Positions 5,086 to 20,513 of a stretch of 64,000 nt of DNA are shown here, one piece after another. The notes under the pieces are model-generated. The model saw only the letters and a list, made by a program, of their open reading frames with translations, ran no database searches and had not been told where the DNA came from. Numbering within the stretch: the stretch's first letter is position 1; each line of letters opens with the position of its first letter. A program made the translations under genes and the position numbers. Source of the DNA: a bacterium (GTDB taxonomy: Bacteria; Oederibacteriota; CAKKQC01); the NCBI GenBank assembly GCA_919901855.1, contig CAKKQC010000037.1, forward strand, positions 14,691 through 78,690, written 5' to 3'.

Positions 5086-5104
5086 TCGCCAGATGGCGAA
5101 ATAT
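5081..5104. promoter_or_regulatory. Operator-like palindrome over the -10 box and arsR start codon
   Basis: Two arms face each other: ATAGTTCGCCA (5081-5091) and TGGCGAAATAT (5094-5104), with GA between them. They pair perfectly over 7 inner bases (TTCGCCA/TGGCGAA) and over the outer ATA/TAT, with one mismatch. It covers most of the -10 box and the arsR ATG, the classic place for an ArsR-family autorepressor to block RNA polymerase until the metal(loid) is bound. Confidence 0.7.
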
Positions 5105-5413
5105 GACGCGGCGACGGTGGCGAGGGTGGCCCGGATCGGCCGGGCCCTCGGAGACCCGGGGCGGGTGCGGGCCCTGCTCGCGCTGTCCGACCGGGAGATG
5201 TGCGGGTGCCACATCGTTTCCCTGCTCGGGCTGGCGCCGTCCACGGTGTCCAAGCACATGGGCGTGCTCGAGCGCGCGGGGCTGGTGACCTCCCGGCGGT
5301 CGGGCCGCTGGAGGCACTATCGCGCCGTGGGCTCCCGGGCTCCGGGGGAGATCAGGAAGGCGCTCGCCGGGCTCTGCCGGTGCGCGTGCGCGACGGCGGA
5401 CAAGGAGGCGTGA
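5093..5413 (+). CDS. arsR: ArsR-family metal(loid)-responsive transcriptional repressor
   Basis: A 106-residue winged-helix repressor. The HTH spans about residues 40-64 (HIVSLLGLAPSTVSKHMGVL) and the wing about 66-80. A Cys pair at residues 37 and 39 (REMCGCHIV) sits where ArsR proteins carry the alpha-3 ELCVCDL metal site, and three more cysteines (95, 97, 99; LCRCACA) form a C-terminal cluster that could complete a trithiolate site. It heads a thirteen-gene run that contains hgcAB and acr3, and its own promoter carries a matching palindrome. In hgcAB-bearing bacteria an ArsR-like regulator next to hgcA is known and in one methylator controls it. Whether this one senses arsenite, mercury or both is open. 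Confidence 0.9.
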   Translation: MAKYDAATVARVARIGRALGDPGRVRALLALSDREMCGCHIVSLLGLAPSTVSKHMGVLERAGLVTSRRSGRWRHYRAVGSRAPGEIRKALAGLCRCACATADKEA

Positions 5414-5414
5414 G

Positions 5415-6215
5415 ATGAGAAGGAGCTTGATCGCGCTCGTGATCATGGCGATGCCGGTGGTGGCGGCGGCCTCCGCCGCGGGGCGGTTGCAGGAGGCCCG
5501 GGACGGGAAGCGGTCCGCGTTCGTCGTCGTGTACGACGGGAACAGTGCCGGGCTCGAGGACGCGCGGGCGATGGCGAAGGCGGGCCGGGAGAAGGCGGGG
5601 AAGGCCAGGGTGAGCCTCGTCGAGCTCAACCGCGACGAGGCCGCGAACCGGGACCTCGTCGAGAAGTACGGCCTCGCGGGCGCGCCGGTGCCGCTCCTGC
5701 TCGTGGTCGCGCCGAACGGGGCGGTCGCCGGGGGCTTTCCCGCCGCGCGCGGTAACGCGGACGTCCTCGTGCGCATGCTCCCGACCCCGAAGAAGGCGGA
5801 CGTGCTGGGCGCGCTAGCGGCCGGCCGGGCCGTCGTCCTCTGCATATACGGGAAGGACGCGCCGGGGATGGAGGCCGTGCGCGCGGCGTGCGCGAAGGCG
5901 CGGGACCAGATGAAGGGCAAGCTCACGGCCGTCTTCGTGGCCAAGGACGATCCGGAGGAGGCCCGGTTCCTGGCCGAGCTTCGGGTGGGTCCCGAGCCGG
6001 CCGGGCAGATGACGCTCGTGATCAACACGGCGGGCCAGGTCACCAGCGGATTCCCGGGCCCCGTGGACGCCGGCCTGCTCGTCGCGGCGGCGAACAAGAA
6101 GGGCGGCGGGATGGCGTGCGCGCCGGGGGCGTGCGGCCCGGGCGCCAAGTCCTGTGCGCCGGGCGCCGCGAAATCCTGCGCGCCGCCGGCCGCCGGATCC
6201 ACCGCGGCGCGCTAG
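5415..6215 (+). CDS. Exported protein with thioredoxin-like folds and Cys-rich C-terminal tail
   Basis: A 266-residue protein with a signal peptide (MRRSLIALVIMAMPVVAAASA). Two similar halves follow (about 25-125 and 135-235), each with thioredoxin-like strand order: KRSAFVVVYDG... VPLLLVVAPNGAVAGGFP, and AVVLCIYGKDA... TLVINTAGQVTSGFPG. Neither half keeps a CxxC active site. The tail has four cysteines in small Gly/Ala/Pro repeats (MACAPGACGPG, SCAPG, SCAPP), suited to binding a soft metal outside the cytoplasm. It is the second gene of the arsR operon, one base after the arsR stop. I do not recognise a named family; metal capture or delivery to the adjacent ABC exporter is inference. Confidence 0.65.
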   Translation: MRRSLIALVIMAMPVVAAASAAGRLQEARDGKRSAFVVVYDGNSAGLEDARAMAKAGREKAGKARVSLVELNRDEAANRDLVEKYGLAGAPVPLLLVVAPNGAVAGGFPAARGNADVLVRMLPTPKKADVLGALAAGRAVVLCIYGKDAPGMEAVRAACAKARDQMKGKLTAVFVAKDDPEEARFLAELRVGPEPAGQMTLVINTAGQVTSGFPGPVDAGLLVAAANKKGGGMACAPGACGPGAKSCAPGAAKSCAPPAAGSTAAR

Positions 6216-6224
6216 CCGGACGCC

Positions 6225-7460
6225 GTGCCCGCGAGTTTCAGCCTGCGGTCGCTCGTCCGGAAGGAGCTCATGCTCCGGAAGACGCGCATGATCTCCGGGC
6301 TCCTGGTCATCGTGCTCGGGATCGGGGCCGTGGTCGGGATCCTGACGGTCACCCGCGCGTCCAACCGGGCGGTCAGCGCCCAGCTCGACGCGCTCGGCGC
6401 CAACATCCTCGTGCTCCCGCAGGGGGCCTCCGTCTCCGACTACTACGCCGCGGACATCGATTCGCCCGTCTTCCCCGAATCCTACGCCACCCGGGTCGTG
6501 ACCTCCATGATTCCGGGCGTCGACAACACGTCACCGAAGCTGAGCCGGCGGATGACGGTCGGGGGCGTAGCCGTCGTCCTGACCGGCATCGTCCCCGCGA
6601 GCGAGGCCGCGGCCAAGCCCATGTGGCAGCGCTCGGTGCTCACGGGGGCGGACCTCCCCGCGGGCTGTGCGCCGGTTCCGGCCGCGGCCGACGGCAAGTC
6701 CGGGTGCCCGCCGGCGAAGCCCGAGCGGATGCGGATCGAGAACCTGGGGCGGACCGAGGCCCTCGTGGGGGCCGCCGCGGCCCGCCGGCTCCGGGCCCGG
6801 GAGGGCGGGTCGGTCGTGATCGCGGGGAAGACCTTCTCGGTTTCCCGGGTCCTTCCCGAGACCGGGACCGTGGACGACGGCCGGATCTTCATCCATCTCC
6901 GGAGCGCCCAGGAGCTGCTCGGGGCGGGCCGGGTGGTCAGCGCCATCGAGATCATGGGCTGTTGCAGCGCGATCTCGGAGGGGCTGCTGGGCAAGCTCCG
7001 GAACATCCTGCCCGACACCCGGATCGTGACGATCAACCACATCGTCAGCGCGCAGGTGGGGACCAACCGGCTCATGGCCCGGGTCTCCGTGGTGCTGGCG
7101 CTCATCATCCTCGTCGTGGGCTCGCTGTCGATGGCGAACGTCATGTGGGCCAACGTCGAGGAGCGGAAGAAGGAGCTCGGGACCCTGATCACGGTCGGGT
7201 TCGGGCGCCGGGACATCTACCTGCTGCTCTTCTCCCGGGCCGCCGCGCTCGGCCTCGTGGGGGGCGTGCTCGGGTACCTGCTCGGCACCGCTACGGCCAT
7301 GCTCGCGGGCCCCTGGATCGCGGATCTTCGGGTCGTGCCCGTGGCCGCGTTCCTCGCGCTCTCGGTGGGGCTAGCGGTCGGGATCTCGGTCCTGGGCTGC
7401 TGGCTGCCCGCGCGCGGGGCCGCCCGGCTGGAGCCCGCGGCCATGATGCAGGACCCATGA
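6225..7460 (+). CDS. ABC transporter permease, FtsX/MacB-like
   Basis: A 411-residue permease with the MacB/LolC topology: one TM near residues 22-44, a large extracytoplasmic domain, and three C-terminal TMs (about 285-307, 335-357, 370-395). The soluble domain carries several cysteines, including a CAPVP...GCPPAK pair and a vicinal pair in IEIMGCCSAISEG, unusual for lipoprotein-release or macrolide permeases and attractive for thiophilic metal handling. It starts at GTG 6225 and overlaps the ATPase start by 4 bases (ATGA), so the two form one exporter. It lies inside the arsR-hgcAB operon. The substrate is unknown; export of a metal-thiol conjugate or a modified lipid are both possible. Confidence 0.8.
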   Translation: MPASFSLRSLVRKELMLRKTRMISGLLVIVLGIGAVVGILTVTRASNRAVSAQLDALGANILVLPQGASVSDYYAADIDSPVFPESYATRVVTSMIPGVDNTSPKLSRRMTVGGVAVVLTGIVPASEAAAKPMWQRSVLTGADLPAGCAPVPAAADGKSGCPPAKPERMRIENLGRTEALVGAAAARRLRAREGGSVVIAGKTFSVSRVLPETGTVDDGRIFIHLRSAQELLGAGRVVSAIEIMGCCSAISEGLLGKLRNILPDTRIVTINHIVSAQVGTNRLMARVSVVLALIILVVGSLSMANVMWANVEERKKELGTLITVGFGRRDIYLLLFSRAAALGLVGGVLGYLLGTATAMLAGPWIADLRVVPVAAFLALSVGLAVGISVLGCWLPARGAARLEPAAMMQDP

Positions 7461-8125
7461 TTCTCCTCGAGACGGCCGGTCTCACCAAGGTGTACGGGCG
7501 GGCCCACGGCGAGGTGCGCGCGCTCGACGGCGTCAGCCTCGCGGTGGGACAGGGCAGCTTCACCGTCGTCACGGGGGGGTCGGGGTCCGGCAAGACCACG
7601 CTCCTGCTCGCGCTCGGCGGACTCATCAGGCCGACGGAGGGGCAGGTCAGGCACAACGGCCGCGATCTCTACGGCTTGCCGGAGCGCGAACTGGCGGGAT
7701 ACCGCAACCGGTCCGTCGGGTTCGTCCTACAGACCTTCAACCTCGTGCCGTACCTGACCGCGGCGGAGAACGTCATGATCCCTATGCTCCTGAACGGCCA
7801 CCGGCCGGGGGGACGGAGGAGGAAGGCGGACGCCCTCCTCGACCGGCTGGGGATGGCGGACCGCAGGGACTTCCTGCCGCGGGAGCTCTCGGTGGGGCAG
7901 CAGCAGCGGGTGGCGATCGCCCGCGCGCTCGCCAACGACCCCGGGATCATCCTCGCGGACGAGCCCACGGGGAGCCTCGACCGGGCGCTGGCCGCGGACA
8001 TTCTCGGGGTGCTTTCGGAGCTGCACAGGAAGGACGGGAGGACGATCGTCATGGTGACGCACAGCAACGAGGCCGCCGCGTGCGGCGACCGCCGCCACCG
8101 GCTGGCCGGGGGCGTCCTGTCGTGA
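7457..8125 (+). CDS. ABC transporter ATP-binding protein, LolD/MacB type
   Basis: A 222-residue nucleotide-binding subunit. Walker A is GGSGSGKTT (residues 40-48), the Q-loop is FVLQTFNLVP, the signature is LSVGQQQRVAIARAL, Walker B is IILADEPTGSLD, and the switch His is in VMVTHSNEAA. This LolD/MacB-type set powers FtsX-like permeases, often by mechanotransmission from periplasm or inner membrane. The ATG overlaps the permease stop (ATGA). The gap to the next gene is 51 bases and ends in a strong AAGGAGGA ribosome site. Confidence 0.9.
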   Translation: MILLETAGLTKVYGRAHGEVRALDGVSLAVGQGSFTVVTGGSGSGKTTLLLALGGLIRPTEGQVRHNGRDLYGLPERELAGYRNRSVGFVLQTFNLVPYLTAAENVMIPMLLNGHRPGGRRRKADALLDRLGMADRRDFLPRELSVGQQQRVAIARALANDPGIILADEPTGSLDRALAADILGVLSELHRKDGRTIVMVTHSNEAAACGDRRHRLAGGVLS

Positions 8126-8176
8126 CCGGGAGGCGCCGGTGAAGGGGTTTCCGCCAAACGAAGCAAGGAGGACTGG

Positions 8177-8341
8177 ATGAACGAGGAGAAGAGCTCGAGC
8201 GGGTGCGGCTGTGGTTCGGGGGAATGCTGCGGGGGCGGCAAGGCGCGGGGCGGTCCGGCGCAATGGATGCGCTTCATCGCGTTCGCCATCATCGTGGCGG
8301 CCGCCGCATTGCTCGTGGTGAAGGGGCTCGCCAGGCCGTGA
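8177..8341 (+). CDS. Small Cys-rich single-pass membrane protein upstream of hgcA
   Basis: A 54-residue ORF preceded by AAGGAGGA (8165-8172), four bases before its ATG. The N-terminal half is Cys/Gly-rich: Cys10, Cys12, Cys17 and Cys18 (GCGCGSGECCGGG), followed by a basic stretch and one TM helix (about 31-49, MRFIAFAIIVAAAALLVV). The stop overlaps the GTG start of hgcA in a GTGA junction, which ties its translation to hgcA. I know no named family. A membrane-anchored thiolate peptide next to a mercury methylase could hand Hg(II) to HgcA/HgcB or to the exporter; this is inference. Short ORFs like this are easily missed in automatic annotation. Confidence 0.8.
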   Translation: MNEEKSSSGCGCGSGECCGGGKARGGPAQWMRFIAFAIIVAAAALLVVKGLARP

Positions 8342-9390
8342 CCGGGGCCCCGTTCGTGACGGGTCGCGTGTCCACCCCGGCGGGGGAGGTCCCGCGGGCC
8401 TCGACCGCGCTCTCGTGGCGGGACCATTGGGGCACGCTCTTTGTCCGCCTCGCGATGGGGCGGATGGCCTACACGGTGGAGCCCGGTCTGTACGCCGTGG
8501 GCTCGCCGTCCCCGGAGTCGCCGGTCCTCGTGAGCGCCAACTACAAGCTCTCGTTCGACCATCTGCGGAGCAGGCTCGGCGGGCTGGATGCGTGGATCCT
8601 GGTTCTCGACACGAAGGGCATCAACGTCTGGTGCGCGGCGGGCAAGGGCACGTTCGGGACGGACGAGATCGTGCGGCGAGTGGCAGCGACCCGGCTGGCC
8701 GAGGTCGTGACGGGCCGCCGGCTGATCCTGCCGCAGCTGGGGGCGCCCGGCGTGAGCGCGCACGAGGTGACCCGGCAGACCCGGTTCGGCGTCGTGTACG
8801 GCCCGGTTCGGGCCGCGGACATCCCGGAGTTCCTGCGGGCCGGGATGAAGGCGACCCCCGGGATGCGCCGGGTTCGTTTCGGGATCCGGGACCGCGCCGT
8901 GCTCATCCCGGTCGAGCTCGTGATCGGGGCGAAGCTGATCTTCGGCGTCGCGTCCGTCATGGTCCTCCTCGGCGGGCTGGTGCGGTGGGGCTACTCCGTG
9001 GACCGCGCCGCGGCCTCCGCGCCCGGGGTGGCGGCGCTGGCGCTGGCCGCGTTCGCCTTCCCGGTCGTGCTCGTGCCCCTGCTGCTCCCGTGGCTTCCGG
9101 GGAGGGCCTTCGCGGTGAAGGGGGCGTGGGTGGGAGCGGCGATGGCCCTCGGGCTGTATCTGGCCGCCCACGCCGGAGTCGTCAATCCCGGCGGGCGGCT
9201 CGAGCTCTGGGGCTGGATGGCGGGGTGGACGGCGCTGGCGAGCTACGTCGCCATGAACTTCACCGGCGCGTCGACTTACACCTCGCTCTCCGGCGTCTAC
9301 GCCGAGATGAAGCGGGCGATCCCCGCCCAGGCCGTGCTGGCGGCGGCGGCGGCCGTCCTGTGGATCTCCGGCCGGCTGGCGGGATCATGA
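8338..9390 (+). CDS. hgcA: Corrinoid protein HgcA, mercury methyltransferase
   Basis: A 350-residue protein with the HgcA signature: the cap-helix motif NVWCAAGKG (Asn96 to about residue 104). Cys99 is the counterpart of Cys93 of the ND132 protein, the proposed Co-ligand from the lower face of the corrinoid. The N-terminal ~175 residues form the CFeSP-like corrinoid domain. Five TM helices follow from about residue 190 to the end, with the family motif MNFTGASTYTSLSGV before the last one. HgcA transfers a methyl group from a methylcorrinoid to Hg(II). I chose GTG 8338 because it overlaps the preceding stop (GTGA) and gives a normal family length. HgcB follows 22 bases later with its own ribosome site. 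Confidence 0.97.
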   Translation: MTGAPFVTGRVSTPAGEVPRASTALSWRDHWGTLFVRLAMGRMAYTVEPGLYAVGSPSPESPVLVSANYKLSFDHLRSRLGGLDAWILVLDTKGINVWCAAGKGTFGTDEIVRRVAATRLAEVVTGRRLILPQLGAPGVSAHEVTRQTRFGVVYGPVRAADIPEFLRAGMKATPGMRRVRFGIRDRAVLIPVELVIGAKLIFGVASVMVLLGGLVRWGYSVDRAAASAPGVAALALAAFAFPVVLVPLLLPWLPGRAFAVKGAWVGAAMALGLYLAAHAGVVNPGGRLELWGWMAGWTALASYVAMNFTGASTYTSLSGVYAEMKRAIPAQAVLAAAAAVLWISGRLAGS

Positions 9391-9412
9391 TTATCGAGAG
9401 GAGGGTTTCCCC

Positions 9413-9709
9413 ATGCCGCTGAAGTATCTCCCGAACGTGGTCACGCTCGAATTGGACGCGGCCAGGTGCAACGGGTGCGGGATGTGCGCGACCGTCTGTC
9501 CCCACGCCGTGTTCGCGGTCGGGGCGGGCCAGGCCCGGATCGGCGACCGGGACGCGTGCATGGAGTGCGGGGCGTGCGCCCGCAACTGTCCGAATGAGGC
9601 GATCTCCGTGCGCGCGGGCGTCGGGTGCGCGGCGGGCATCATCGCGGGACTCCTGGGCGGGATCGGGCCGGCGTCCGCCTGCGCGCCGTCCGCCGGCGTG
9701 AAGTCATGA
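9413..9709 (+). CDS. hgcB: HgcB, 2[4Fe-4S] ferredoxin partner of HgcA
   Basis: A 98-residue dicluster ferredoxin. Cluster motifs are [12 protein letters not shown] (Cys19, 22, 25, 29) and [12 protein letters not shown] (Cys49, 52, 55, 59). Cys72 in AGVGCAAGI is the extra HgcB-specific cysteine (Cys73 in ND132), and Cys90 near the C-terminus (SACAPS) corresponds to the C-terminal cysteine(s) thought to bind Hg(II). There is one here rather than a vicinal pair. HgcB supplies electrons to return the HgcA corrinoid to Co(I) and may deliver mercury. A GAGAGGAGGG ribosome site precedes it. The stop overlaps the ACR3 start (ATGA), physically linking methylation to arsenite efflux. Confidence 0.96.
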
Positions 9710-10812
9710 GGGGGCCTCGGCCCCCCGCGCGCGCCGTGGCGACCGGGGGCGTTCTCCGCCGCCTCTCGTTCCTGAACCGGTACCTGACGGTATGGATCTT
9801 CGCCGCCATGGCCGTCGGGGTGGCGTCCGGGTACGCCTTCCCGGGACTGGTGCCGTTCCTGAACGGGCTGAGCGTGGGCACGACCTCGATCCCGATCGCG
9901 GTCGGGCTGATCCTGATGATGTACCCGCCTCTCGCGAAGGTGCGGTACGAGGAGATGGGGCCCGTCTTCCGGAACACGAAGGTCCTGGGGTTGTCGCTCG
10001 TCCAGAACTGGGTCGTCGGCCCGATCCTGATGTTCGGCCTGGCCGTCCTGTTCCTGCGCGACCGGCCCGAGTACATGGTCGGGCTGATCCTGATCGGGCT
10101 GGCGCGGTGCATCGCCATGGTCATCGTCTGGAACGACCTGGCCAGGGGAGACACCGAGTACTGCGCCGGGCTGGTCGCGTTCAACTCGATCTTCCAGGTC
10201 CTCTTCTACTCGGTCTACGCCTGGTTCTTCATCACGATCCTGCCGACCTGGTTCGGGCTGGCGGGGGTGGCCGTGCACGTGACGATCGGCGAGATCGCGA
10301 AGAGCGTGTTCGTCTACCTCGGCATCCCGTTCCTGGCCGGGATCATCACCCGGTTCACGCTCATCCGGCTGAGGGGCAAGGCCTGGTACCACGACCGGTT
10401 CATACCCCGGATCAGTCCGCTCACGCTCGTGGCCCTGCTCTTTACGATCGTGGTCATGTTCTCGCTCAAGGGCGAGTACATCGTCCAGCTCCCGCTCGAC
10501 GTCGTCCGGATCGCGATCCCGCTCCTCATCTATTTCGTGGTCATGTTCTTCATCTCGTTCTTCATGAGCCGGTACGTGGGGGCCGACTACGGCCAGACGA
10601 CGACGCTGTCGTTCACGGCGGCGTCGAACAACTTCGAGCTCGCGATCGCGGTGGCGATCGCGACGTTCGGGATCGGGCACGGCGCCGCCTTCGCGGCCGT
10701 GATCGGCCCCCTGGTCGAGGTGCCCGTCCTGATCGGGCTCGTGAGCGTGGCGCTGTGGCTGAAGCCCCGGTTCTTCCCGCGGAAGACTGTGAGGAGGTCA
10801 GGAGGAGGATGA
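9706..10812 (+). CDS. acr3: ACR3 family arsenite efflux permease
   Basis: A 368-residue inner-membrane carrier of the ACR3 (BASS superfamily) type with about ten TM helices. The hallmark Cys135 in [17 protein letters not shown] matches the conserved TM4 cysteine needed for As(III) transport, and the Glu in [18 protein letters not shown] matches the conserved TM9 glutamate. It exports arsenite driven by proton motive force. I chose the ATG at 9706, which overlaps the hgcB stop, rather than an earlier in-frame start that would overlap hgcB widely. It is part of the arsR-hgcAB operon. Confidence 0.95.
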
Positions 10813-11285
10813 TGCGGAAGCCAGCGATGGCCTGCCTAGCGGGATTGTCGGTCCTGATGGCTTCCTGCCTGTCTTCCGGCTTCAAGCCCGTATCGCCGGA
10901 TCCGAGAGTGGAGCTTGACCGGGGCCAACACGATTTCGGGACGATCCCGCCGACGGAGACCGTGCAAACGGTCTTCATGGTTACGAATCGGGGAGGCCGG
11001 AATCTGGAGATCAGCGGGGTCCAGAGCTCCTGCGGATGCACCGGCGGCGTGATGGATTCACGGACCATCAGGCCGGGCGAAACCGGCCGCCTCACGGTGT
11101 ACTACAACCCGCGTGGGTGGAATGGGCCGCAGGCCAAGACCATCACGCTCTTCACCAACGATCCACAGACCCCGCAGACACCTCTTGGCATCAGCGCGAA
11201 CGTTGCGGCGGACGTGCCGACCCAACCGCCGGTGGTTTCGCCTGCAAGTCCCGCCGTCCCGGCTCCCGGGTCCGGGCAGAGGTAG
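10812..11285 (+). CDS. DUF1573 lipoprotein
   Basis: A 157-residue protein with a lipobox (SVLMASC; Cys about residue 17), so probably a lipoprotein. A single DUF1573 Ig-like domain follows: HDFGTIPPTETVQTVFMVTNRGG, then LEISGVQSSCGCTGG with the family's SCGCT motif. DUF1573 proteins are often encoded near membrane or redox genes in anaerobes, with unknown role. The vicinal-like Cys pair could bind soft metal ions. The ATG at 10812 shares one base with the acr3 stop and follows GGAGGAGG by a few bases; an ATG at 10809 is equally possible. Confidence 0.8.
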   Translation: MRKPAMACLAGLSVLMASCLSSGFKPVSPDPRVELDRGQHDFGTIPPTETVQTVFMVTNRGGRNLEISGVQSSCGCTGGVMDSRTIRPGETGRLTVYYNPRGWNGPQAKTITLFTNDPQTPQTPLGISANVAADVPTQPPVVSPASPAVPAPGSGQR

Positions 11286-11287
11286 CC

Positions 11288-12370
11288 GTGGGCGCCGCGC
11301 CTTCCGCCTCGGTGTCCTGCGCGATCGGGGATCCGCCCGCGCCCGCTTCCCGGGTCCCGCTGGGACGGTGGCTGGCCGTGATCGGGATCTCCCTGGCGGC
11401 CTGGTTCGGGGCGTTCCAGGTCCTCGCCCCGTTCGCCTCCTGGGTGGTGCGGGGCCTGCCGGGGATCACGGCGGGAAGCCATCCCGCCGCGGCGCTCGAG
11501 TTCTTCTTCTTCGAGGTTCCCAAGGTGCTCCTGCTTCTCGTGCTCATCGTCTTCGTGATGGGCGTGATCCGGTCGTTCTTCTCCCCGGAGACCACGCGGC
11601 GGCTGCTGACCGGCCGGGGCGAACACGGCGGCACCGTGCTCGCGGCGCTGCTGGGGATCGTGACCCCGTTCTGCTCCTGCTCCGCGGTGCCGATGTTCAT
11701 CGGATTCATGTCGGCCGGGGTGCCGCTGGGCGTCACGTTCGCCTTTCTCGTGTCCGCGCCGATGGTCAACGAGGTCGCGCTCGTCCTCCTGTTCGGGCTG
11801 TTCGGCTGGAAGGTCGCGGGAATCTACCTCGTCACGGGGCTGGCGGTGGCCATGGCCACGGGCTGGGTCATCGGCCGGCTCCATCTCGAAGGCTGGGTCC
11901 AGCCGTGGGTGGCCGAGGTGGCCGCCGCCGGCCCGGGAGCGAGCGCCCGGCTGTCGTGGCCGAACCGGTTCGATCTGGGTTTGGAGGCCCTGCGGGACAT
12001 CGTCGGCCGGACCTGGCCGTACGTGGTGGTGGGGGTGGGGGCGGGCGCGGCCATCCACGGTTGGGTTCCCGCGGACTCGCTGGCTCCCCTCATGGGACGC
12101 AGCGCGTGGTGGAGCGTTCCGGTGGCGGTCCTCATCGGCGTGCCCATGTACTCGAACGCCGCCGGCATGATCCCGGTCGTCCAGGCGCTGCTGGCCAAGG
12201 GCGCGGCGCTCGGTACCGCACTGGCTTTCATGATGGCCGTGGTGGGGCTGTCGTTCCCGGAGTGGGTGATCCTGCGGAGGGTGCTGACCATCAAACTCAT
12301 CGCCGTGTTCGCGGGCATCGTCGCGGTCGGGATCATGATCGTCGGCTACCTGTTCAACTGGCTGTTCTGA
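11288..12370 (+). CDS. ArsP/YraQ-type permease (PF03773), putative organometal(loid) efflux
   Basis: A 360-residue membrane protein with about eight to ten TM helices in two blocks. The family motif TPFCSCSAVPMF (Cys129, Cys131) is followed by SAGVPLGVTFAFLVSAPMVNE, as in ArsP_1 permeases. The characterised ArsP exports trivalent organoarsenicals such as methylarsenite using cysteine ligands; other members have unknown substrates. Its position between hgcAB/acr3 and ArsF/ArsG-like genes makes efflux of methylated or aromatic metal(loid)s the best guess. The GTG start at 11288 lies 2 bases after the previous stop; no other start fits. Confidence 0.8.
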   Translation: MGAAPSASVSCAIGDPPAPASRVPLGRWLAVIGISLAAWFGAFQVLAPFASWVVRGLPGITAGSHPAAALEFFFFEVPKVLLLLVLIVFVMGVIRSFFSPETTRRLLTGRGEHGGTVLAALLGIVTPFCSCSAVPMFIGFMSAGVPLGVTFAFLVSAPMVNEVALVLLFGLFGWKVAGIYLVTGLAVAMATGWVIGRLHLEGWVQPWVAEVAAAGPGASARLSWPNRFDLGLEALRDIVGRTWPYVVVGVGAGAAIHGWVPADSLAPLMGRSAWWSVPVAVLIGVPMYSNAAGMIPVVQALLAKGAALGTALAFMMAVVGLSFPEWVILRRVLTIKLIAVFAGIVAVGIMIVGYLFNWLF

Positions 12371-12389
12371 GGGATGAGGGAGGAGAAAG

Positions 12390-12623
12390 ATGAAGACGAT
12401 CCAGGTTCTGGGAACGGGCTGTCCGAAGTGCAAGAAGCTCGGTGAAGTGGCCGAGGAAGCCGCCAAGGCGGCGGGGATTGAGTACAGCATTGAGAAGGTC
12501 ACCGACATGCAGAAGATCATCGCGTTCGGCGTGATGGCGACGCCCGCGCTGGTCGTGGACGGCAAGGTCAAGGTCTCGGGGCGGGTGCCGTCGGCGGACG
12601 AGATGAAGGGGATGCTGGCATGA
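12390..12623 (+). CDS. Small thioredoxin-like redox protein (redox-active disulfide type)
   Basis: A 77-residue mini-thioredoxin. The active site is CPKC (Cys11, Cys14) after the first strand (IQVLGTG), and the cis-Pro loop is VMATPALVVDGKV. This family (PF13192) is commonly next to ArsP/YraQ-like permeases and acts as a thiol reductase or metal shuttle in the cytoplasm. GAGGGATGAGGGAGGAG precedes the ATG. The stop overlaps the next start (ATGA). Confidence 0.9.
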   Translation: MKTIQVLGTGCPKCKKLGEVAEEAAKAAGIEYSIEKVTDMQKIIAFGVMATPALVVDGKVKVSGRVPSADEMKGMLA

Positions 12624-13123
12624 ACGCCGGCACGGGGAGGTCGATAATGCGTGGAGGCACCGGATTGGCGATGGCGGCGGCGGTGTGCCTGCTGGGTTCC
12701 GTGGTCTGGGCGATGGCGTCGAAACAGAAGGCGGGAACGGCCGAACCGGCCGCGCAGGCGAAGCCGGCGGCCGCGGAGAAGGGCTGGAAGCTGGTCGCGT
12801 ACTACCTGCACGGGAACTTCCGGTGCGCGACCTGCCTCTCCATCGAGGCGCAGTCGAAGGAAGCCGTCGAGACGGACTTCGCCGGGGAGATCAAGGACGG
12901 GAAGGTCGCGTTCGCGACGCTGAACTACGAGCAGCCGGACAACGCGCATCTCGGAGAGGACTACCGGCTCACGACCCGGTCGCTGGTCCTGTCGCTCCGC
13001 AAGGACGGCAAAGAGGTCAAGTGGAAGAACCTGCCCGAGGTCTGGACCCGCGTCCACAATCCGCCCGCCTTCCGTGAGTACGTGAACACCGAGGTGAAGG
13101 CGATGCTCCGGGAGATGATCTGA
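12620..13123 (+). CDS. arsF: ArsF-like protein (membrane-anchored thiol protein)
   Basis: A 167-residue protein with an N-terminal signal anchor (about 12-33) and an exported thioredoxin-like domain. The recognisable stretch is YYLHGNFRCATCLSIEAQ, with a CxxC at Cys69 and Cys72, characteristic of the family named after ArsF of the ArsEFG aromatic-arsenical reduction and efflux system. Here there is an ArsF- and an ArsG-like gene side by side, and the preceding mini-thioredoxin takes the ArsE-like place. It probably relays electrons from the partner membrane protein across the membrane. Assignment rests on motif recognition only. Confidence 0.75.
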   Translation: MNAGTGRSIMRGGTGLAMAAAVCLLGSVVWAMASKQKAGTAEPAAQAKPAAAEKGWKLVAYYLHGNFRCATCLSIEAQSKEAVETDFAGEIKDGKVAFATLNYEQPDNAHLGEDYRLTTRSLVLSLRKDGKEVKWKNLPEVWTRVHNPPAFREYVNTEVKAMLREMI

Positions 13124-13806
13124 CGGACCTCCTTCTCGTCGCGGGCTCCGCCTTCTGGCTGGGGATCCTGGTATCCATCAGTCCGTGCCCGCTGGCCTGT
13201 AACATCGCCGCGGTCTCGCTGATCGGGCACCGGTTCGAGCACCGGGGGTGGGTCGTCTTGTCGGGCGTGCTCTACACCGCGGGCCGGAGCTTCGCCTACG
13301 CGGTCCTGGGGTACCTGGCCGTCTCGGCCTTTTCCGCCCTGCCGTCCGTGTCCCGGTTCCTCCAGCTCTGGATGAACCGGGGACTGGCGGTTCTGATCGT
13401 CCTCACCGGGCTCCTGCTGCTGGACTTCCTCCCGGTCCGGCTGCCCTCGGTATCCGTCTCGGGTGAAGGGGCCCGCCGACTCGAGCGGTGGGGTCTCTTG
13501 GGCGTGTTCCTCATGGGAGCCCTGTTCGCGCTGGCGCTCTGCCCGGTATCGGCGGGGCTGTTCTTCGGCGCGCTGGTGCCCCTCGCCGTCAAAGCGCAGT
13601 CGCCCCTGTGGCTTTCCGTGGTCTTCGGCGTGGGGACGGGGCTTCCCGTGGTCGTGTTCGCGGTGGTTCTCGCCTTCGCTGCGGGCCGGCTGAACGAGGT
13701 CTACCTCAAGGTGCAGCGGGCGGAACTGGTCGCGCGGAAAGCCACCGGCGCGGCGCTCGTCTTCATCGGGGTCTACATCATGCTCAGGTACACCGTCGGC
13801 ATCTAG
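13120..13806 (+). CDS. arsG: ArsG-like permease, CcdA/DsbD-type membrane protein, apparent CTG start
   Basis: A 228-residue protein with about six TM helices of the CcdA/DsbD-like LysE superfamily. From CTG 13120 the protein starts TDLLLVAGSAFWLGILVS and contains the family motif ISPCPLACNIAAVSLIG. The only conventional start, TTG 13258, would remove both the first TM and this Cys motif. CTG overlaps the arsF stop as CTGA, mirroring the ATGA junctions upstream, and GGAGA lies four bases before it. A second Cys (FALALCPVSAG) matches the paired redox cysteines of this fold. It is the last gene of the operon. ArsG-like proteins are reported as aromatic arsenical efflux permeases; electron relay to ArsF is an alternative. 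Confidence 0.75.
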   Translation: MTDLLLVAGSAFWLGILVSISPCPLACNIAAVSLIGHRFEHRGWVVLSGVLYTAGRSFAYAVLGYLAVSAFSALPSVSRFLQLWMNRGLAVLIVLTGLLLLDFLPVRLPSVSVSGEGARRLERWGLLGVFLMGALFALALCPVSAGLFFGALVPLAVKAQSPLWLSVVFGVGTGLPVVVFAVVLAFAAGRLNEVYLKVQRAELVARKATGAALVFIGVYIMLRYTVGI

Positions 13807-14032: not shown

Positions 14033-16012
14033 GTGCCCCTCCTCCTGATCGCCCTCGCTATTCTCGTGTCCACCGGGCTCGCCGCGCTGGCGGCCGGCGG
14101 CAGGCGCGCGTGGGCGGTCAGGCTGGGAGCCGGGGGAGCCGTCGCGGCCTGCCTCGTCGGGCTCGTGCCCGCCATCCGGGCCGTCGCGGGAGCGCCCGAT
14201 GAGGCCCTGGATGTCGCCTGGTCCCTGCCGGGCGGCGCCTGCTCGCTGGGGCTGGACCCGCTCTCGGGATTCTTCCTCGCCGCGATCCTGGCGCTGGGCG
14301 CGCTCGCCGCCGTCTACGGCGCCGAATATCTCGCCCCCACGCCCGAGCGCCCGCGGGTCGGCGCGGCCTGGTGGTGGTACAACCTCCTGATCGCGTCGAT
14401 GGCGGTCGTCGTGTGCGCCCGGAACGCCGTGCTGTTCCTCATCGCGTGGGAGATCATGACCCTCGCCTCGTTCTTCCTCGTGGTCTGGGAGGACCACCGC
14501 GAGGATGCCCGGCGGGCCGGCTGGACGTACCTCGTCGCGGCGCACATCGGCACCGCGTGCCTCATCGGGTTCTTCGTGGGGCTCGGAGACACCGGGGGGC
14601 CGCTGGGGCTGGGGGCGGGCCACGCGCCCTCGCTTGGCGCCGGCTGGCTCTTCCTGCTCGCCCTCCTCGGATTCGGGGTCAAGGCGGGATTCATTCCCCT
14701 GCACGTCTGGCTGCCCGAGGCGCACCCGGCCGCGCCGTCCCACGTTTCGGCGGTGATGTCGGGCGTCATGATCAAGATCGGCATCTACGGGCTCCTGCGG
14801 GCGCTGACGCTCTTGGGGCCGGCGCCCGCCTCCTGGGGCTGGGTCCTGCTCGCGGTCGGGATCGTGTCCGGCATCCTCGGCGTGCTGAACGCGCTGGCCC
14901 AGCACGATCTCAAGCGGCTCCTGGCGTACCACAGCGTCGAGAACATCGGCATCATAGCGATGGGAATCGGGCTCGGCGTGATCGCGCAGGCGGCGGGCTG
15001 CCCGGCGGCGGCCGTGCTCGGGTACGCCGGGGGCCTGCTGCACGTCGCCAACCACGCGACGTTCAAGGGCCTCCTGTTCCTGGACACGGGGTCGGTCGTG
15101 CATGCGACCGGAACGCGGCACCTCGAGGACCTGGGCGGGTTGGCGAAGCGCATGCCGCGGACCGCCTTCACGTTCCTGGTCGGCGCGGTCGCGATCTCGG
15201 GGCTCCCGCCCCTGAACGGGTTCGTGAGCGAGTTCCTGATCCTGCTCGCCGCGTTCAGCCTCCTCACGGGAGGGGCCGGCTGGACGGTCGTGGCGGCGGT
15301 GGCCGCGATCGCCTCACTCGCCATGATCGGGACGCTGGCGACCGCGTGCTTCACGAAGGCCTTCGGGGTCGTGTTCCTGGGCGAGCCGCGATCGGATCAC
15401 GCGCGGCGGGGCCACGACCCGGCGCCCGCGATGCAGCTCCCGTCGATGGTCCTGGCCGCTCTGTGCGTGGCCGGCGGGCTGGGCGCTCCCTGGGTCGTCG
15501 GCTGGCTGGCCGCGCCCGTCGGCGTCCTCGCTGCGGGCGCCGGGCTGCCGGTCGGGGCCGTGCTCGCGGATACGGCCGGCCTCCTCGCCGTCGTGGCCGG
15601 GGCTGGGGCGGCGTTCCTGGCGCTGGCCGGGGCCGCGGCCTATGCGCGGCGGCGCCTCCTCACGGGCCGGTCCGTGACCGGGGACGCCACGTGGGGCTGT
15701 GGCTACGCCGCGCCGACGGCGCGGATGCAGTACACGGCCTCGTCGTTCGCCGCGCCGCTGGTCAAGTACTTCAACTCCGTGCTCGGCACCCGGAAGGCCC
15801 ACGGGGCGGTCACCGGGTACTTCCCGCGGCACGGGAGCTTCAGCACGGGCGCGCCGGACCTGTTCGCGACGCGCCTCCTCGCCCCGACCTTCCGGGGGGT
15901 GTCGGGCCTGCTGGGCCGGTTGCGCGGGATGCAGGCGGGCCGGGTCCAGCTCTACGTGGCGTACGTCGCCGCGATGCTGGTCGCGCTCCTGCTGTGGGAG
16001 GGCCGCCGATGA
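14033..16012 (+). CDS. Hydrogenase-4 component B-like / NuoL-type proton-pumping subunit (Ehr complex)
   Basis: A 659-residue antiporter-like membrane subunit with about fifteen TM helices. The family core is visible in WEIMTLASFFLVVWE, KAGFIPLHVWLPEAHPAAPSHVSAVMSGVMIKIGIYG and LKRLLAYHSVENIGII, with the Lys/His/Glu residues that form proton channels in NuoL/M/N and HyfB. It is the first gene of a six-gene operon; the GTG start lies 12 bases after the paired hairpins. The C-terminal ~200 residues are HyfB-like, with CGYAAPTARMQYTASSFAAP. Confidence 0.9.
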   Translation: MPLLLIALAILVSTGLAALAAGGRRAWAVRLGAGGAVAACLVGLVPAIRAVAGAPDEALDVAWSLPGGACSLGLDPLSGFFLAAILALGALAAVYGAEYLAPTPERPRVGAAWWWYNLLIASMAVVVCARNAVLFLIAWEIMTLASFFLVVWEDHREDARRAGWTYLVAAHIGTACLIGFFVGLGDTGGPLGLGAGHAPSLGAGWLFLLALLGFGVKAGFIPLHVWLPEAHPAAPSHVSAVMSGVMIKIGIYGLLRALTLLGPAPASWGWVLLAVGIVSGILGVLNALAQHDLKRLLAYHSVENIGIIAMGIGLGVIAQAAGCPAAAVLGYAGGLLHVANHATFKGLLFLDTGSVVHATGTRHLEDLGGLAKRMPRTAFTFLVGAVAISGLPPLNGFVSEFLILLAAFSLLTGGAGWTVVAAVAAIASLAMIGTLATACFTKAFGVVFLGEPRSDHARRGHDPAPAMQLPSMVLAALCVAGGLGAPWVVGWLAAPVGVLAAGAGLPVGAVLADTAGLLAVVAGAGAAFLALAGAAAYARRRLLTGRSVTGDATWGCGYAAPTARMQYTASSFAAPLVKYFNSVLGTRKAHGAVTGYFPRHGSFSTGAPDLFATRLLAPTFRGVSGLLGRLRGMQAGRVQLYVAYVAAMLVALLLWEGRR

Positions 16013-16929
16013 CGCTCCTGGCTTCCGCGTTCGTATACCTGGCCGGGCTGGTGCTGGCGCCGGGCCTGCCGGGGATCGTGAACCGCGTCAAGGCGGCAAT
16101 GGCGGGCCGGAAGGGCGTCCCGACGCTCCAGCTCTACGCGGATCTTGCCAAGCTGCTCCGCAAGGGAGCCGTGTACAGCCGGACGACGACCTGGGTCTTC
16201 CGCTTCGGTCCCGTGGCCGGGCTCGCGGCGGTGCTGGTCGCGCTGGCGCTGGTGCCGGCCGGGGGCGTGGCCGCGCCGGTGTCGTTCTCGGGGGACCTGA
16301 TCCTGTTCGCCGGCCTCTTCGCCGTCATGCGGATGGCGACGATGCTGGCCGCGCTGGACACGGGATCGAGCTTCGAGGGGATGGGGGCCAGCCGGGAGGC
16401 CGCGTTCGCCGTGTTCGCCGAGCCGGCGCTGCTCGTCGCGCTGGCCGCGATCGTGCGGGTCACGGACTCGCTCTCGCTGAGCGGCGCCGCCGCGGCCGCG
16501 GGCTCCGGCCTCTGGGGACACGCCGCCGCGCCGGTCAGCCTGGCCTGCGCCGCGCTCTTCGTGGTCCTGCTGGCCGAGAACGCGCGGGTGCCCGTGGACG
16601 ACCCCAACACGCACCTGGAACTCACGATGATCCACGAGGTCATGGTGCTCGACCACGGGGGCCCCGACTTCGCGCTGATCCAGTACGCGTCAGCGCTCAA
16701 GCTGTGGGCCGGATCGGCCCTGATCGTGTCCCTGCTGCCCTGCCGCACCGGGAACCCGTGGATCGACCCCGTAATCTTCCTGGCCGGCATGGCCGGGGCC
16801 GGCGTCCTGGTCGGGCTCGTCGAGTCCTTCCTCGCCCGGCTGAAGATGTCCCGGGTGCCGCACATGCTCGTGGGGGCGATGGCGCTCGCGATCCTGGCGC
16901 TCGTGATGGGGAGGACGGGCCGTGGCTGA
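16009..16929 (+). CDS. Hydrogenase-4 component C-like / NuoH-type membrane anchor
   Basis: A 306-residue protein with about eight TM helices, homologous to complex I subunit NuoH and HyfC/HycD, which links the peripheral arm to the proton-pumping module. Family motifs include GIVNRVKAAMAGRKGVPTLQ near the N-terminus and ARVPVDDPNTHLELTMIHE around residue 185-205, matching the quinone-site loop of NuoH. ATG overlaps the previous stop (ATGA). Confidence 0.9.
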   Translation: MTLLASAFVYLAGLVLAPGLPGIVNRVKAAMAGRKGVPTLQLYADLAKLLRKGAVYSRTTTWVFRFGPVAGLAAVLVALALVPAGGVAAPVSFSGDLILFAGLFAVMRMATMLAALDTGSSFEGMGASREAAFAVFAEPALLVALAAIVRVTDSLSLSGAAAAAGSGLWGHAAAPVSLACAALFVVLLAENARVPVDDPNTHLELTMIHEVMVLDHGGPDFALIQYASALKLWAGSALIVSLLPCRTGNPWIDPVIFLAGMAGAGVLVGLVESFLARLKMSRVPHMLVGAMALAILALVMGRTGRG

Positions 16930-17557
16930 CGCCCTGCTCGTCCTCATCGTCCTCGTCAACCTCTCCCTGCTCGGGGGGCGGCGCATCGCCGGGTGCATCG
17001 GCCGTGTCGCGGTCCAGGGGCTGGCGGTCTCGGTCTGTGCGCTGGTCGCGGAGCGCGCGCCCCATCCCGGCCGGCTGCTCCTGCTCGCCGCGCTGGGGGT
17101 GGCGGTCAAGGGGCTGCTCGTGCCCTGGCTGCTGCGCCGCGCGATGAAGACCGCCGAGGTCGTCGAGGAGACCCGGCCGCCGGTGGGGTTCACGGCGTCG
17201 ACCGTGATCGGGCTGGCGCTCCTCGGCGTCGCCTTCGTGGTCGCCGGACGCCTGCCGGCCGTGGATCCGGGCCTGCCGCCGCTCATGCTGCCGGTGGCGT
17301 TCACGACCATGCTCAGCGGGCTGTTGCTGGTCATCGTGCGCAAGACGGCCCTGTTGCAGGTGATCGGCTACCTGATGATGGAGAACGGCATCTTCATGGC
17401 CGGGATCGCGCTCGTGTCCGGCATCCCGTGGCTGGTCGAGCTGGGCGTCCTCCTGGACGCGGCGACCGCGGTGCTGGTGATGTCCGCCGTGATCGGCCAC
17501 ATCAGCCGGGTGTTCGACCACGTGGACATGGACCGGCTGAGGAACCTGCAGGGATGA
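16922..17557 (+). CDS. Hydrogenase-4 component E-like / NuoK-like subunit
   Basis: A 211-residue protein with about six or seven TM helices, matching HyfE. The C-terminal half resembles NuoK, with ENGIFMAGIALVSGIPWLVELGVLLD and TAVLVMSAVIGHISR. The GTG start overlaps the preceding gene by 8 bases, and its own stop overlaps the next ATG. Part of the membrane arm. Confidence 0.85.
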   Translation: MADALLVLIVLVNLSLLGGRRIAGCIGRVAVQGLAVSVCALVAERAPHPGRLLLLAALGVAVKGLLVPWLLRRAMKTAEVVEETRPPVGFTASTVIGLALLGVAFVVAGRLPAVDPGLPPLMLPVAFTTMLSGLLLVIVRKTALLQVIGYLMMENGIFMAGIALVSGIPWLVELGVLLDAATAVLVMSAVIGHISRVFDHVDMDRLRNLQG

Positions 17558-19041
17558 CGCCCCCGGCGCCCGATCTCGTGACGGGGCTGCTGCTGGCGGT
17601 CCCCCTGGCGGGCGCCGCTGCGGCGCAGCTGGCGCGGACCGCGCGGGGGATGCTTATGTCCGTCGTGGGGGGGGCGGTAGCCACGTGCGCTCTCGCGGCG
17701 GCGGCCGTCTGGCTCGTGTGGACGGGGGGCCCGGTCCAGGCGGCCGGGGGCTGGTTCCTGCTGGACCCGCTGGCGACCTACCATCTCGCCGTCATGGGCC
17801 TGGTCCTGCTCATGAGCAGCCTGTTCGCCGTCGACTACTTCGACGACGAGATCCGCCGGGGGGCGCTGGGGCTTCCCGCCGTCCGGCTCTTCGCCGTCCT
17901 CTGGTCCGGGTCCGTCGCCGCGATGACCCTCGTGCTGGTGTCCAACAGCGTGGGGCTGATGTGGGTGGGGCTGGAGGCCACGACCCTGCTGACGGCGTTC
18001 CTCATCTGCCTGCACCGCGACAAGGGGTCGCTCGAGGCCACGTGGAAGTACATCCTGATCTGCTCCGTCGGGATCGCGCTCGCGTTCATGGGGACGATCC
18101 TGGTCGCGGCGGCGGCCCCGCGGGGCGAGTTCGGCGGCGCCGGCGTCCTGTCGTGGACCCGGCTCGTGGCGCTCGGCCCCGCGCTGGACCCCGCGCTGGT
18201 CCGGCTCGGGTTCATCTTCCTCCTGGTGGGGTACGGCACCAAGGCTGGGCTCGCCCCCATGCACACGTGGCTGCCGGACGCGCACAGCCAGGCCCCCGCG
18301 CCCGTGTCCGCGCTCTTCTCCGGGTTCATGATCAACACCGGGCTCTACTGCCTCATGCGGTACCTGGCGATCCTGGCCGGTACCCCCGCTTCGGGGGCGT
18401 GGGCCCGGGGCCTGCTCGTCTTCCTGGGCCTCGTCTCCCTCGTGACGGCGGCGGCGTTCATCCTGTTCCAGCGCAGCCTCAAGCGGCTGCTCGCGTACTC
18501 GGGCGTCGAGCACATGGGGATCATCGCGCTCGGTCTCGGGCTCGGCGGGCTGGGCACCGTCGGCGCGCTGTGGCACGTGCTGAACCACTCCCTGGCCAAG
18601 ACGTTCGCCTTCTGCGCGGCCGGCCGGATGGGACAGCTCTACGGGTCGCACGACATGGACCGGATGAAGGGCACGCTCCGGGCCGCGCCGGTCTGGGGGA
18701 CGGGGCTCTGGGTCAGCTTCCTCGCCCTGCTCGGGGTGGCCCCCTTCGCGCTCTTCATGAGCGAGTTCACGATCTTCCGGGGGGCGCTCCAGGCGCGCGC
18801 GTTCTGGCCGGCCGGGATATTCCTGGGCGCGGTGGCGGTCGTGTTCGTGGGGGCGTCGCGGCACGCGATCGCGATGGCATTTGGGTCTTCCCCGGACCGG
18901 GAGCTGGATGAGCGCGCCGGGGTGAGGGCCCGGGTGCTGGTCTGGGGCGCCATCGCGGGCCTGCTCGGGCTCGGGCTGTGGCTGCCCGGCCCGCTCGCGC
19001 GGATGCTGGCCGAGGCGGCGCGGGTGCTGGAGGGCGGATGA
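17554..19041 (+). CDS. Hydrogenase-4 component F-like / NuoN-type proton-pumping subunit
   Basis: A 495-residue antiporter-like subunit with about fourteen TM helices. Key segments are VGLEATTLLTAFLICLHRDK, YGTKAGLAPMHTWLPDAHSQ and LKRLLAYSGVEHMGIIALG, plus SLAKTFAFCAAGRMGQ, all typical of HyfF. Glu and Lys residues of the proton path are retained. ATG overlaps the previous stop (ATGA). With the 14033 gene this gives two pumping modules, as in hydrogenase-4 and Ehr-type complexes. Confidence 0.9.
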   Translation: MTPPAPDLVTGLLLAVPLAGAAAAQLARTARGMLMSVVGGAVATCALAAAAVWLVWTGGPVQAAGGWFLLDPLATYHLAVMGLVLLMSSLFAVDYFDDEIRRGALGLPAVRLFAVLWSGSVAAMTLVLVSNSVGLMWVGLEATTLLTAFLICLHRDKGSLEATWKYILICSVGIALAFMGTILVAAAAPRGEFGGAGVLSWTRLVALGPALDPALVRLGFIFLLVGYGTKAGLAPMHTWLPDAHSQAPAPVSALFSGFMINTGLYCLMRYLAILAGTPASGAWARGLLVFLGLVSLVTAAAFILFQRSLKRLLAYSGVEHMGIIALGLGLGGLGTVGALWHVLNHSLAKTFAFCAAGRMGQLYGSHDMDRMKGTLRAAPVWGTGLWVSFLALLGVAPFALFMSEFTIFRGALQARAFWPAGIFLGAVAVVFVGASRHAIAMAFGSSPDRELDERAGVRARVLVWGAIAGLLGLGLWLPGPLARMLAEAARVLEGG

Positions 19042-20513
19042 GCACGACGGGGCGGGAGCTGATGCCCGGCGAGGCGGTGCCGGTCGGGGAGATCCCGGTC
19101 GTATCCGCCGCGGCGTTCCGGAACGTCGTCATGGACCGGATCGGGCGGGGCGACTGGCTGGCGGCGCTGTTCGGCCATCCCGTGAACGGCTCCGTCCGGG
19201 TCACGGCCATCCTCGCGTGTCCGCGGTTCGGCGAGCTGCGCGCGGTCGCGTTCGACCCGGGCGCCTCCTACCCGGCGCTCACGCCCGAGTGCCTGGAGGC
19301 CCACTGGTTCGAGCGCGAACTGCACGAGCAATGGGGCGTGACTCCGGTGGGGCATCCGTGGCTCAAGCCGGTCCGTTTCACGACTCCGGGCGCCATTCCG
19401 GGCGTGACCGACTACTTCGCCGTCGCGGGGGAGGAGGTCCACGAAGTGGCCGTGGGGCCGGTCCACGCGGGCATCATCGAGCCGGGGCACTTCCGGTTCC
19501 AGTGCCACGGCGAGGACGTCCTGCACCTCGAGATCTCGCTTGGCTACCAGCACCGGGGCGTCGAGCGCGCTCTGGTCGGAGGCCCGAACGCGCGGACGAT
19601 CCACTACCTGGAGACCCTTTCAGGCGACGCGTCCGCGGGACATGCGACCGCGGGGGCCGAGGTCCTCGAGAGCCTGGCCGGGGTCCGGCCCTCCGACCGC
19701 TCTCTCGCGCTCCGGGCCGTCGGGCTCGAGCTCGAGCGGATGGCGAACCACACCGGTGACCTCGGGGCGCTCGCGGGCGACGTCGCGTTCCTGCCGACCG
19801 CCTCGTACTGCGGCCGGCTGCGCGGGGAGTTCCTGAACATGACCGCCATGATCTGCGGCAGCCGGCTGGGCCGCGGGCTCGTGCGGCCGGGCGGGGTCGG
19901 GTTCGATGTCACAGCGGAGTTGGTGCGTGACCTGCTCGGCCGGCTGGATCCGGCCATGCGCGAATTCACGGACTCGGTCCGGCTCCTGTTCGAGTCGCCG
20001 TCCGTGGTGGCGCGGTTCGAGCACCTGGGGACTCTCACCCGGCACGAGGCCGTGAAGATGGGGCTGGTCGGGCCGGCGGCCCGGGCCTCGGGCGTGGCGC
20101 GGGACGTGCGTTCCGATTTCCCCTCCGGCGCCTACCGCTGGATTCCCGTCCTGCTCGCGCTCAAGGAGTCCGGCGATGTCATGGCCCGGGCGCGCGTACG
20201 CTGGCAGGAGGTCCACCAGGCGGCGTCGTTCGTCCGGCAGGTGCTTTCCCGCCTGCCGGAAGGCGAGCCCTGGCGGCCCGTCCGCGGCCTCCAGCCCGGC
20301 CGGCTGGCGGTGTCGCTGGTCGAGGGCTGGCGGGGCGCGATCTGCCACGTGGCGCTGACCGGCGACGAGGGCCGCATCGCCGCTTACAAGGTCGTGGACC
20401 CGTCGTTCCACAACTGGTTCGGGCTCGCGCGCGCGATGCGCCGCCAGCAGATCTCGGACTTCCCGGTGTGCAACAAGAGCTTCAACCTCTCGTATTGCGG
20501 GCACGACCTGTGA
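19038..20513 (+). CDS. NuoCD/HyfG-like large subunit lacking NiFe ligands (Ehr-type)
   Basis: A 491-residue fusion of a NuoC-like N-terminal domain (about 1-130, with HWFERELHEQWGV) and a NuoD/hydrogenase large-subunit domain (GHFRFQCHGEDVLHLEISLG, YQHRGVERAL, ELERMANHTGD). In true group 4 [NiFe] hydrogenases the active site has an N-terminal CxxC and a C-terminal CxxC. Here the first is replaced by LSGDASAGHATAG with no cysteine. The last is CNKSFNLSYCGHDL, where the two Cys are nine residues apart instead of two. So it cannot hold a NiFe centre of the usual kind; this marks the energy-converting hydrogenase-related (Ehr) group. The electron acceptor or donor is unknown. Confidence 0.85.
   Translation: MSTTGRELMPGEAVPVGEIPVVSAAAFRNVVMDRIGRGDWLAALFGHPVNGSVRVTAILACPRFGELRAVAFDPGASYPALTPECLEAHWFERELHEQWGVTPVGHPWLKPVRFTTPGAIPGVTDYFAVAGEEVHEVAVGPVHAGIIEPGHFRFQCHGEDVLHLEISLGYQHRGVERALVGGPNARTIHYLETLSGDASAGHATAGAEVLESLAGVRPSDRSLALRAVGLELERMANHTGDLGALAGDVAFLPTASYCGRLRGEFLNMTAMICGSRLGRGLVRPGGVGFDVTAELVRDLLGRLDPAMREFTDSVRLLFESPSVVARFEHLGTLTRHEAVKMGLVGPAARASGVARDVRSDFPSGAYRWIPVLLALKESGDVMARARVRWQEVHQAASFVRQVLSRLPEGEPWRPVRGLQPGRLAVSLVEGWRGAICHVALTGDEGRIAAYKVVDPSFHNWFGLARAMRRQQISDFPVCNKSFNLSYCGHDL

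Follow-up and report, generated by a model that had tools for sequence, protein, structure and literature searches.

The hgcA and hgcB genes of this bacterium form an adjacent pair in canonical order inside a 13-gene same-strand run that extends from arsR to arsG (5093-13806; positions refer to the window, that is, the whole 64,000-nucleotide stretch of DNA that was analysed). The pair is very probably a genuine hgcAB, lying within an ArsR-controlled metal(loid)-handling operon and acting in mercury methylation by the mechanism proposed below. Together, hgcA and hgcB are required for methylation of Hg(II), and on this established knowledge the host is a predicted producer of methylmercury. The host genome measures 4.68 Mb (93% complete, 0.7% contamination), and the contig that holds the window 78.7 kb; the window has a GC content of 72%, from which neither gene deviates.

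The NCBIfam equivalog models assign both proteins to their families: HgcA scores 427 bits with NF040863 (E 4e-128, cut-off 275), which is among the highest scores within its own phylum, and HgcB scores 118 bits with NF040864 (E 1e-34, cut-off 99). The HgcA translation contains the cap-helix motif NVWCAAGK (with Cys99) and MNFTGASTYTSLSGV; the HgcB translation contains two CxxCxxCxxxCP clusters (C19/22/25/29 and C49/52/55/59), Cys72 in the context GVGC (equivalent to Cys73 of Pseudodesulfovibrio mercurii ND132) and Cys90. A sequence-only reading of the same DNA had given these motifs and cysteines, and the coordinates of the pair, exactly. The cap cysteine is unchanged across all rows of a 32-row HgcA alignment, and its column holds cysteine in 97 of 98 HgcA proteins. 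(The sole substitution, glycine in NVWGAAGK, is found in a Brocadiaceae MAG, L018:822-1829, on a short contig, where a sequencing error is possible.)

The AlphaFold2 model of HgcA (built from 32 sequences; mean pLDDT 91) consists of a corrinoid domain and five long helices. A short helix (residues 97-103) bears Cys99 and sits over the CFeSP-like corrinoid domain, which is followed by TM helices at 190-211, 221-252, 258-278, 287-311 and 317-348, as many as the sequence-only reading had counted. The corrinoid domain superimposes on CFeSP structures with an rmsd of 1.4-1.8 Å over ~125 residues (at best 1.4 Å over 124); the whole chain can be aligned with the deposited computational model of HgcAB, 9a0b, over 323 residues (46% identical), although the rmsd is as large as 7.4 Å. 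With both equivalog cut-offs exceeded, and with the conserved residues, fold and gene order in place, the canonical adjacent pair is real. It resembles ND132 HgcAB in gene order, cap-helix cysteine, five TM helices, dicluster ferredoxin and the Cys73 equivalent; unlike the ND132 pair, it is preceded by a Cys-rich TM mini-protein and embedded in a long ars run, and its HgcB has one C-terminal cysteine instead of Cys94-Cys95.

Table 1. Genes of the run around hgcAB (window coordinates), and a recurrent gene unit at four other loci
Feature	Coordinates	Strand	Description	Basis
arsR	5093..5413	+	ArsR/SmtB metalloregulator; MCGC motif, Cys-rich C-terminus	NF033788 77.6 bits (cut-off 55); PF01022
Double-thioredoxin-fold protein	5415..6215	+	Secreted; disordered Cys/Gly/Pro tail, no CxxC within the folds	
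ABC permease	6225..7460	+	MacB/FtsX type; GCC motif in periplasmic domain	PF02687, PF12704
ABC ATPase	7457..8125	+	LolD/MacB type	TIGR02211 195 bits (below cut-off 308)
Mini-protein	8177..8341	+	54 aa; Cys-rich N-tail (CGCGSGECCGG), single TM helix; 4-nt overlap of its stop with the hgcA start	
hgcA	8338..9390	+	Corrinoid protein, 350 aa, GTG start; cap-helix Cys99, 5 TM helices	NF040863; AlphaFold2 model
hgcB	9413..9709	+	Dicluster ferredoxin, 98 aa, ATG start; Cys72, single C-terminal Cys90	NF040864; tail comparison
acr3	9706..10812	+	ACR3 arsenite efflux permease; 4-nt overlap of its start with the hgcB stop	TIGR00832 456 bits (cut-off 283)
Lipoprotein-like protein	10809..11285	+	Cys-containing; resembles OS_HP2/choice-of-anchor D	NF041425 62 bits (below cut-off 100)
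ArsP_1-type permease	11285..12370	+		PF03773 223 bits; SaoE model (see text)
Small thioredoxin-like protein	12390..12623	+	GTGCPKC	ORF; homologues at other hgcAB loci
arsF	12620..13123	+	ArsF-family protein	NF040494 111 bits (cut-off 60)
arsG	13120..13806	+	ArsG/CcdA-like membrane protein (SPCPLACN); probably starts at a CTG that overlaps the arsF stop	Translation
Cys-tail/TM, CcdA-like, hgcA, hgcB unit	L012:4819-6102; L022:1004-2385; L025:6568-7907; L072:5572-6571			

The sequence-only reading left out the operon that surrounds the pair: arsR, the ABC/thioredoxin genes, the mini-protein and the ars genes. Gaps within the run are between -4 and +51 nt, provided that arsG starts at CTG 13120, with 4-nt overlaps at several joints, including those of the mini-protein with hgcA and of hgcB with acr3. 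This tight spacing makes it likely that the 13 genes are co-transcribed; a promoter and terminator scan yielded evidence of neither, and no Rfam RNA (riboswitches included) reached the gathering threshold in the window. Upstream of the run, at 1930-2840, lie GNAT acetyltransferase-like and low-molecular-weight-phosphatase-type ArsC-like genes, which are probably further arsenic genes, and right after it, at 14033-20513, the ORFs indicate membrane NADH-dehydrogenase/group 4 hydrogenase-like genes.

The presence of ars genes (acr3, arsC, arsR) beside hgcAB is already known (PMC7438021). As at those loci, acr3 here directly follows hgcB and an ArsR is encoded in the same run; unlike them, the window adds an ABC exporter and a double-thioredoxin protein, and has ArsP, Trx, ArsF and ArsG in one run. 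For ND132, ArsR control of hgcAB and its response to arsenic have been shown in work cited in PMC10349881; by extension from other species, regulation by arsenite, like activity on mercury, would be expected here as well. The ArsP_1-type permease resembles SaoE of the SAO organometal system (NF040736), but its score of 135 bits is well under the SaoE cut-off of 325, and membership of that system is rejected on this score; no other SAO component came up when 10 of the run's genes were scanned with NCBIfam. One phylum-mate has two hgcA genes on two contigs (L100 and L109), each near acr3 and ArsR-like genes.

This setting bears on what the pair is for. HgcAB might mainly serve a metal(loid) other than mercury, for example arsenic or antimony, methylating or transferring it for export by ACR3, ArsP or the ABC transporter, with mercury methylation as a side reaction. 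The placement of the pair between ABC genes and acr3, with 4-nt overlaps and under ArsR, fits such a role, as does the fact that 33 of 97 relatives encode an ars-type gene no more than 5 kb from hgcA, and what HgcAB natively does is still under debate (PMC10349881). It is nevertheless unlikely to be the explanation, every residue known to be important for mercury methylation being retained. Moreover, unrelated thiol-metal genes are often brought together in ars operons, and we know of no HgcAB that has been shown to act on arsenic.

The tail of HgcB is unusual. Beyond Cys72 it has one cysteine, Cys90, and thus retains at least one C-terminal cysteine. Among 95 readable tails drawn from the window and 97 relatives, only two have fewer than two extra cysteines (this one and that of L050, which is possibly broken); the earlier remark that a vicinal pair is missing is borne out, and the condition is nearly unique in the set. 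Published counts include many HgcB proteins with a single C-terminal cysteine, and ND132 HgcB mutants with either Cys94 or Cys95 alone still methylate mercury (PMC7305189), so that a single cysteine is no argument against activity. (Selenocysteine read-through of the hgcB TGA, which might regain a CC pair, is rejected: the codons past TGA, read by eye, specify no cysteine.) It is thus quite unlikely that this HgcAB, though genuine, is weak or inactive for want of a second HgcB cysteine and of a Cys tail on HgcA itself. The rarity of the HgcB tail and the lack of cysteine in the HgcA N-tail would fit that interpretation, but both reading frames are intact, the HgcA score is high for the phylum, and fewer than two N-terminal cysteines are also found in 38 of 96 HgcA proteins.

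The sequence-only reading had also provided for HgcA grouping with non-methylating CFeSP-type paralogs; this was checked and is not so. HgcA and CFeSP share the corrinoid domain PF03599, and the host has two CFeSP-type genes, both on another contig (C57), of which the CFeSP gamma reaches only 58 bits with the HgcA model, against 427 for the window gene. That the window gene is itself a Wood-Ljungdahl paralog of this type is hardly conceivable and is rejected, since the common domain and the structural match to CFeSP gamma extend only over residues ~26-170 of a 350-residue, TM-bearing protein, unlike CFeSP gamma (AcsC/CdhE), which has an N-terminal 4Fe-4S domain and a TIM barrel and no TM domain, whereas the equivalog scores, the cap cysteine, the fold, the HgcB partner and the separate CFeSP genes identify the pair as HgcAB.

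For HgcAB as a mercury-methylating pair, the mechanism proposed here follows ND132, in which SAM is the methyl donor and cob(I) is methylated (PMC11588087). Corrinoid binding by the window HgcA, and the need for HgcA in mercury methylation, are taken over from other species: HgcA would bind the corrinoid with Cys99 as lower ligand, as the conserved residues suggest, and the 4Fe-4S clusters of HgcB would reduce the cobalt. Methylation of the cobalt by SAM would be followed by passage of the methyl group to thiol-bound Hg(II), which Cys72 and Cys90 of HgcB may help to deliver and to remove. Genomic context suggests further steps: the mini-protein may stand in for the N-terminal Cys tail that in many other HgcA proteins would form the thiol relay, CcdA/thioredoxin-type (ArsG-type) proteins may keep the relay thiols reduced, and the ABC exporter and ACR3 may remove methylmercury and arsenite.

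The mini-protein encoded just 5' of hgcA (MNEEKSSSGCGCGSGECCGGGKARGGPAQWMRFIAFAIIVAAAALLVVKGLARP) has an ORF with a ribosome site, AAGGAGG, and a coding-like GC distribution (0.89 at the third codon position vs 0.59 and 0.61 at the first and second). A homologue search found no full-length relative of the 54-residue protein. Its motif is similar to one that is widespread in HgcA: among 96 proteins with a readable start, 58 have at least two cysteines in the N-terminus, where cysteine makes up 4.8% of residues vs 0.8% in the remainder (the start was taken as the first in-frame ATG, and some tails are possibly too long). In phylum-mates such a Cys tail is found within HgcA itself, an example being DCGCGTSAVDCCGG in L095, and the window HgcA, with a cysteine-free N-tail, adjoins the mini-protein. 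Separate proteins combining a Cys tail with TM segments are encoded beside hgcAB at five loci (L012, L022, L025, L043 and L072), and at all of these except L043, loci that span several phyla, the Cys-tail/TM gene is followed by a CcdA-like gene and then by hgcA and hgcB (Table 1). More generally, a CcdA-like gene starts on the same strand within 1.3 kb directly upstream of hgcA at 11 of 81 loci, again in several phyla. A literature search found no paper on Cys-tail membrane proteins with CcdA-like proteins beside hgcAB, and none among the papers searched that ties hgcA to ccdA or to thioredoxin partners beyond arsenate reductase.

The mini-protein is proposed to be a minimal form of a Cys-tail carrier, the likeness consisting in a short, low-complexity Cys/Gly motif and a TM anchor. 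Tentatively, HgcAB in this lineage may be part of a larger membrane machine. Its other parts would be an anchored Cys-rich carrier and a CcdA-like channel for thiol reductant, joined in some species by an ABC exporter and a periplasmic double-thioredoxin protein, and together they would deliver thiol-bound metal to HgcAB and expel the methylated product. Here the carrier would be a separate protein of 54 residues; elsewhere it would be either the HgcA N-terminal tail or a Cys-tail TM protein of greater length.

The double-thioredoxin protein, which has no Pfam match, is modelled by AlphaFold2 (pLDDT 77) as two thioredoxin folds with a disordered tail, and its best Foldseek match is the protein disulfide oxidoreductase 1a8l (E 4e-7). 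The closest parallel to its cassette is in a Planctomycetia MAG (L004, JAPLNP010000154.1), the HgcA and HgcB of which are 58% and 69% identical to those of the window. Both loci have double-thioredoxin, FtsX, ATPase, ArsR, ArsF and CcdA-like genes around hgcAB. In L004 two homologues of the double-thioredoxin protein are 29-31% identical, FtsX (with GCC conserved) is 42% and the ATPase 49% identical, and the gene immediately upstream of hgcA encodes a protein 31% identical to the window's ArsG/CcdA-like protein. The L004 locus differs in three respects: its cassette, ArsR included, comes just after hgcB, HgcA itself contains the Cys tail, and the HgcB tail ends in CCG. Elsewhere the cassette FtsX is rare: it has no match in any of the 44 other phylum genomes (E<=1e-30), has strong matches in two of 50 hgcA-containing genomes (L004 and L019) and much weaker ones in four more, and has one distant match on plasmids. 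In L019, FtsX, ATPase and ArsR are together on a short contig without hgcAB. This distribution makes the cassette at most an optional partner of hgcAB, probably one passed between lineages. No paper on an ABC/thioredoxin cassette beside hgcAB was found in a literature search. In a Syntrophobacterales MAG (L120:3912-7259), a membrane protein bearing GSCCSPGGGGGGCGGK is encoded next to a distant FtsX/ATPase pair, a further instance of a Cys/Gly stretch by an FtsX-type ABC transporter.

HgcA above the model cut-off occurs in 16 of 45 genomes examined from the phylum. (A divergent HgcA-like protein of the same phylum, L107:1501-2433, scores 165 bits, under the cut-off of 275, and has an HgcB-like neighbour.) The window HgcA is 58-59% identical to the proteins of L012, a deltaproteobacterial MAG ranked in Myxococcota, and of L004, and 42-49% identical to those of its phylum-mates, the divergent L107 left out. 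Its partner in the tree is L012 (SH-aLRT 94). A clade uniting it with its own phylum narrowly escapes rejection by an AU test (p 0.062), so that horizontal origin of this hgcA is no more than suggested. The host RpoB is 46-61% identical over long matches to its counterparts in 42 named hgcA-containing genomes, and up to 73% identical over short conserved stretches; by this comparison, none of the 42 clearly belongs to the same phylum. Plasmid origin is rejected, there being no HgcA among PLSDB plasmids. A MerB search of the host genome gave no match, the control genomes being equally silent.

Judged by its sequence, then, the pair is unexceptional for the HgcAB family, and its arsenic setting has precedent there; the less familiar part is the accessory partners, the putative exporter and the Cys-rich mini-protein, of which no description was found. 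The pair adds one more member of a small phylum of bacteria to the predicted producers of methylmercury. The joining of hgcAB to a regulator, a candidate Cys-rich carrier, thiol-redox proteins and two kinds of exporter provides concrete candidate partners, which bear on how mercury is delivered to HgcAB, how methylmercury leaves and what the pair is for.
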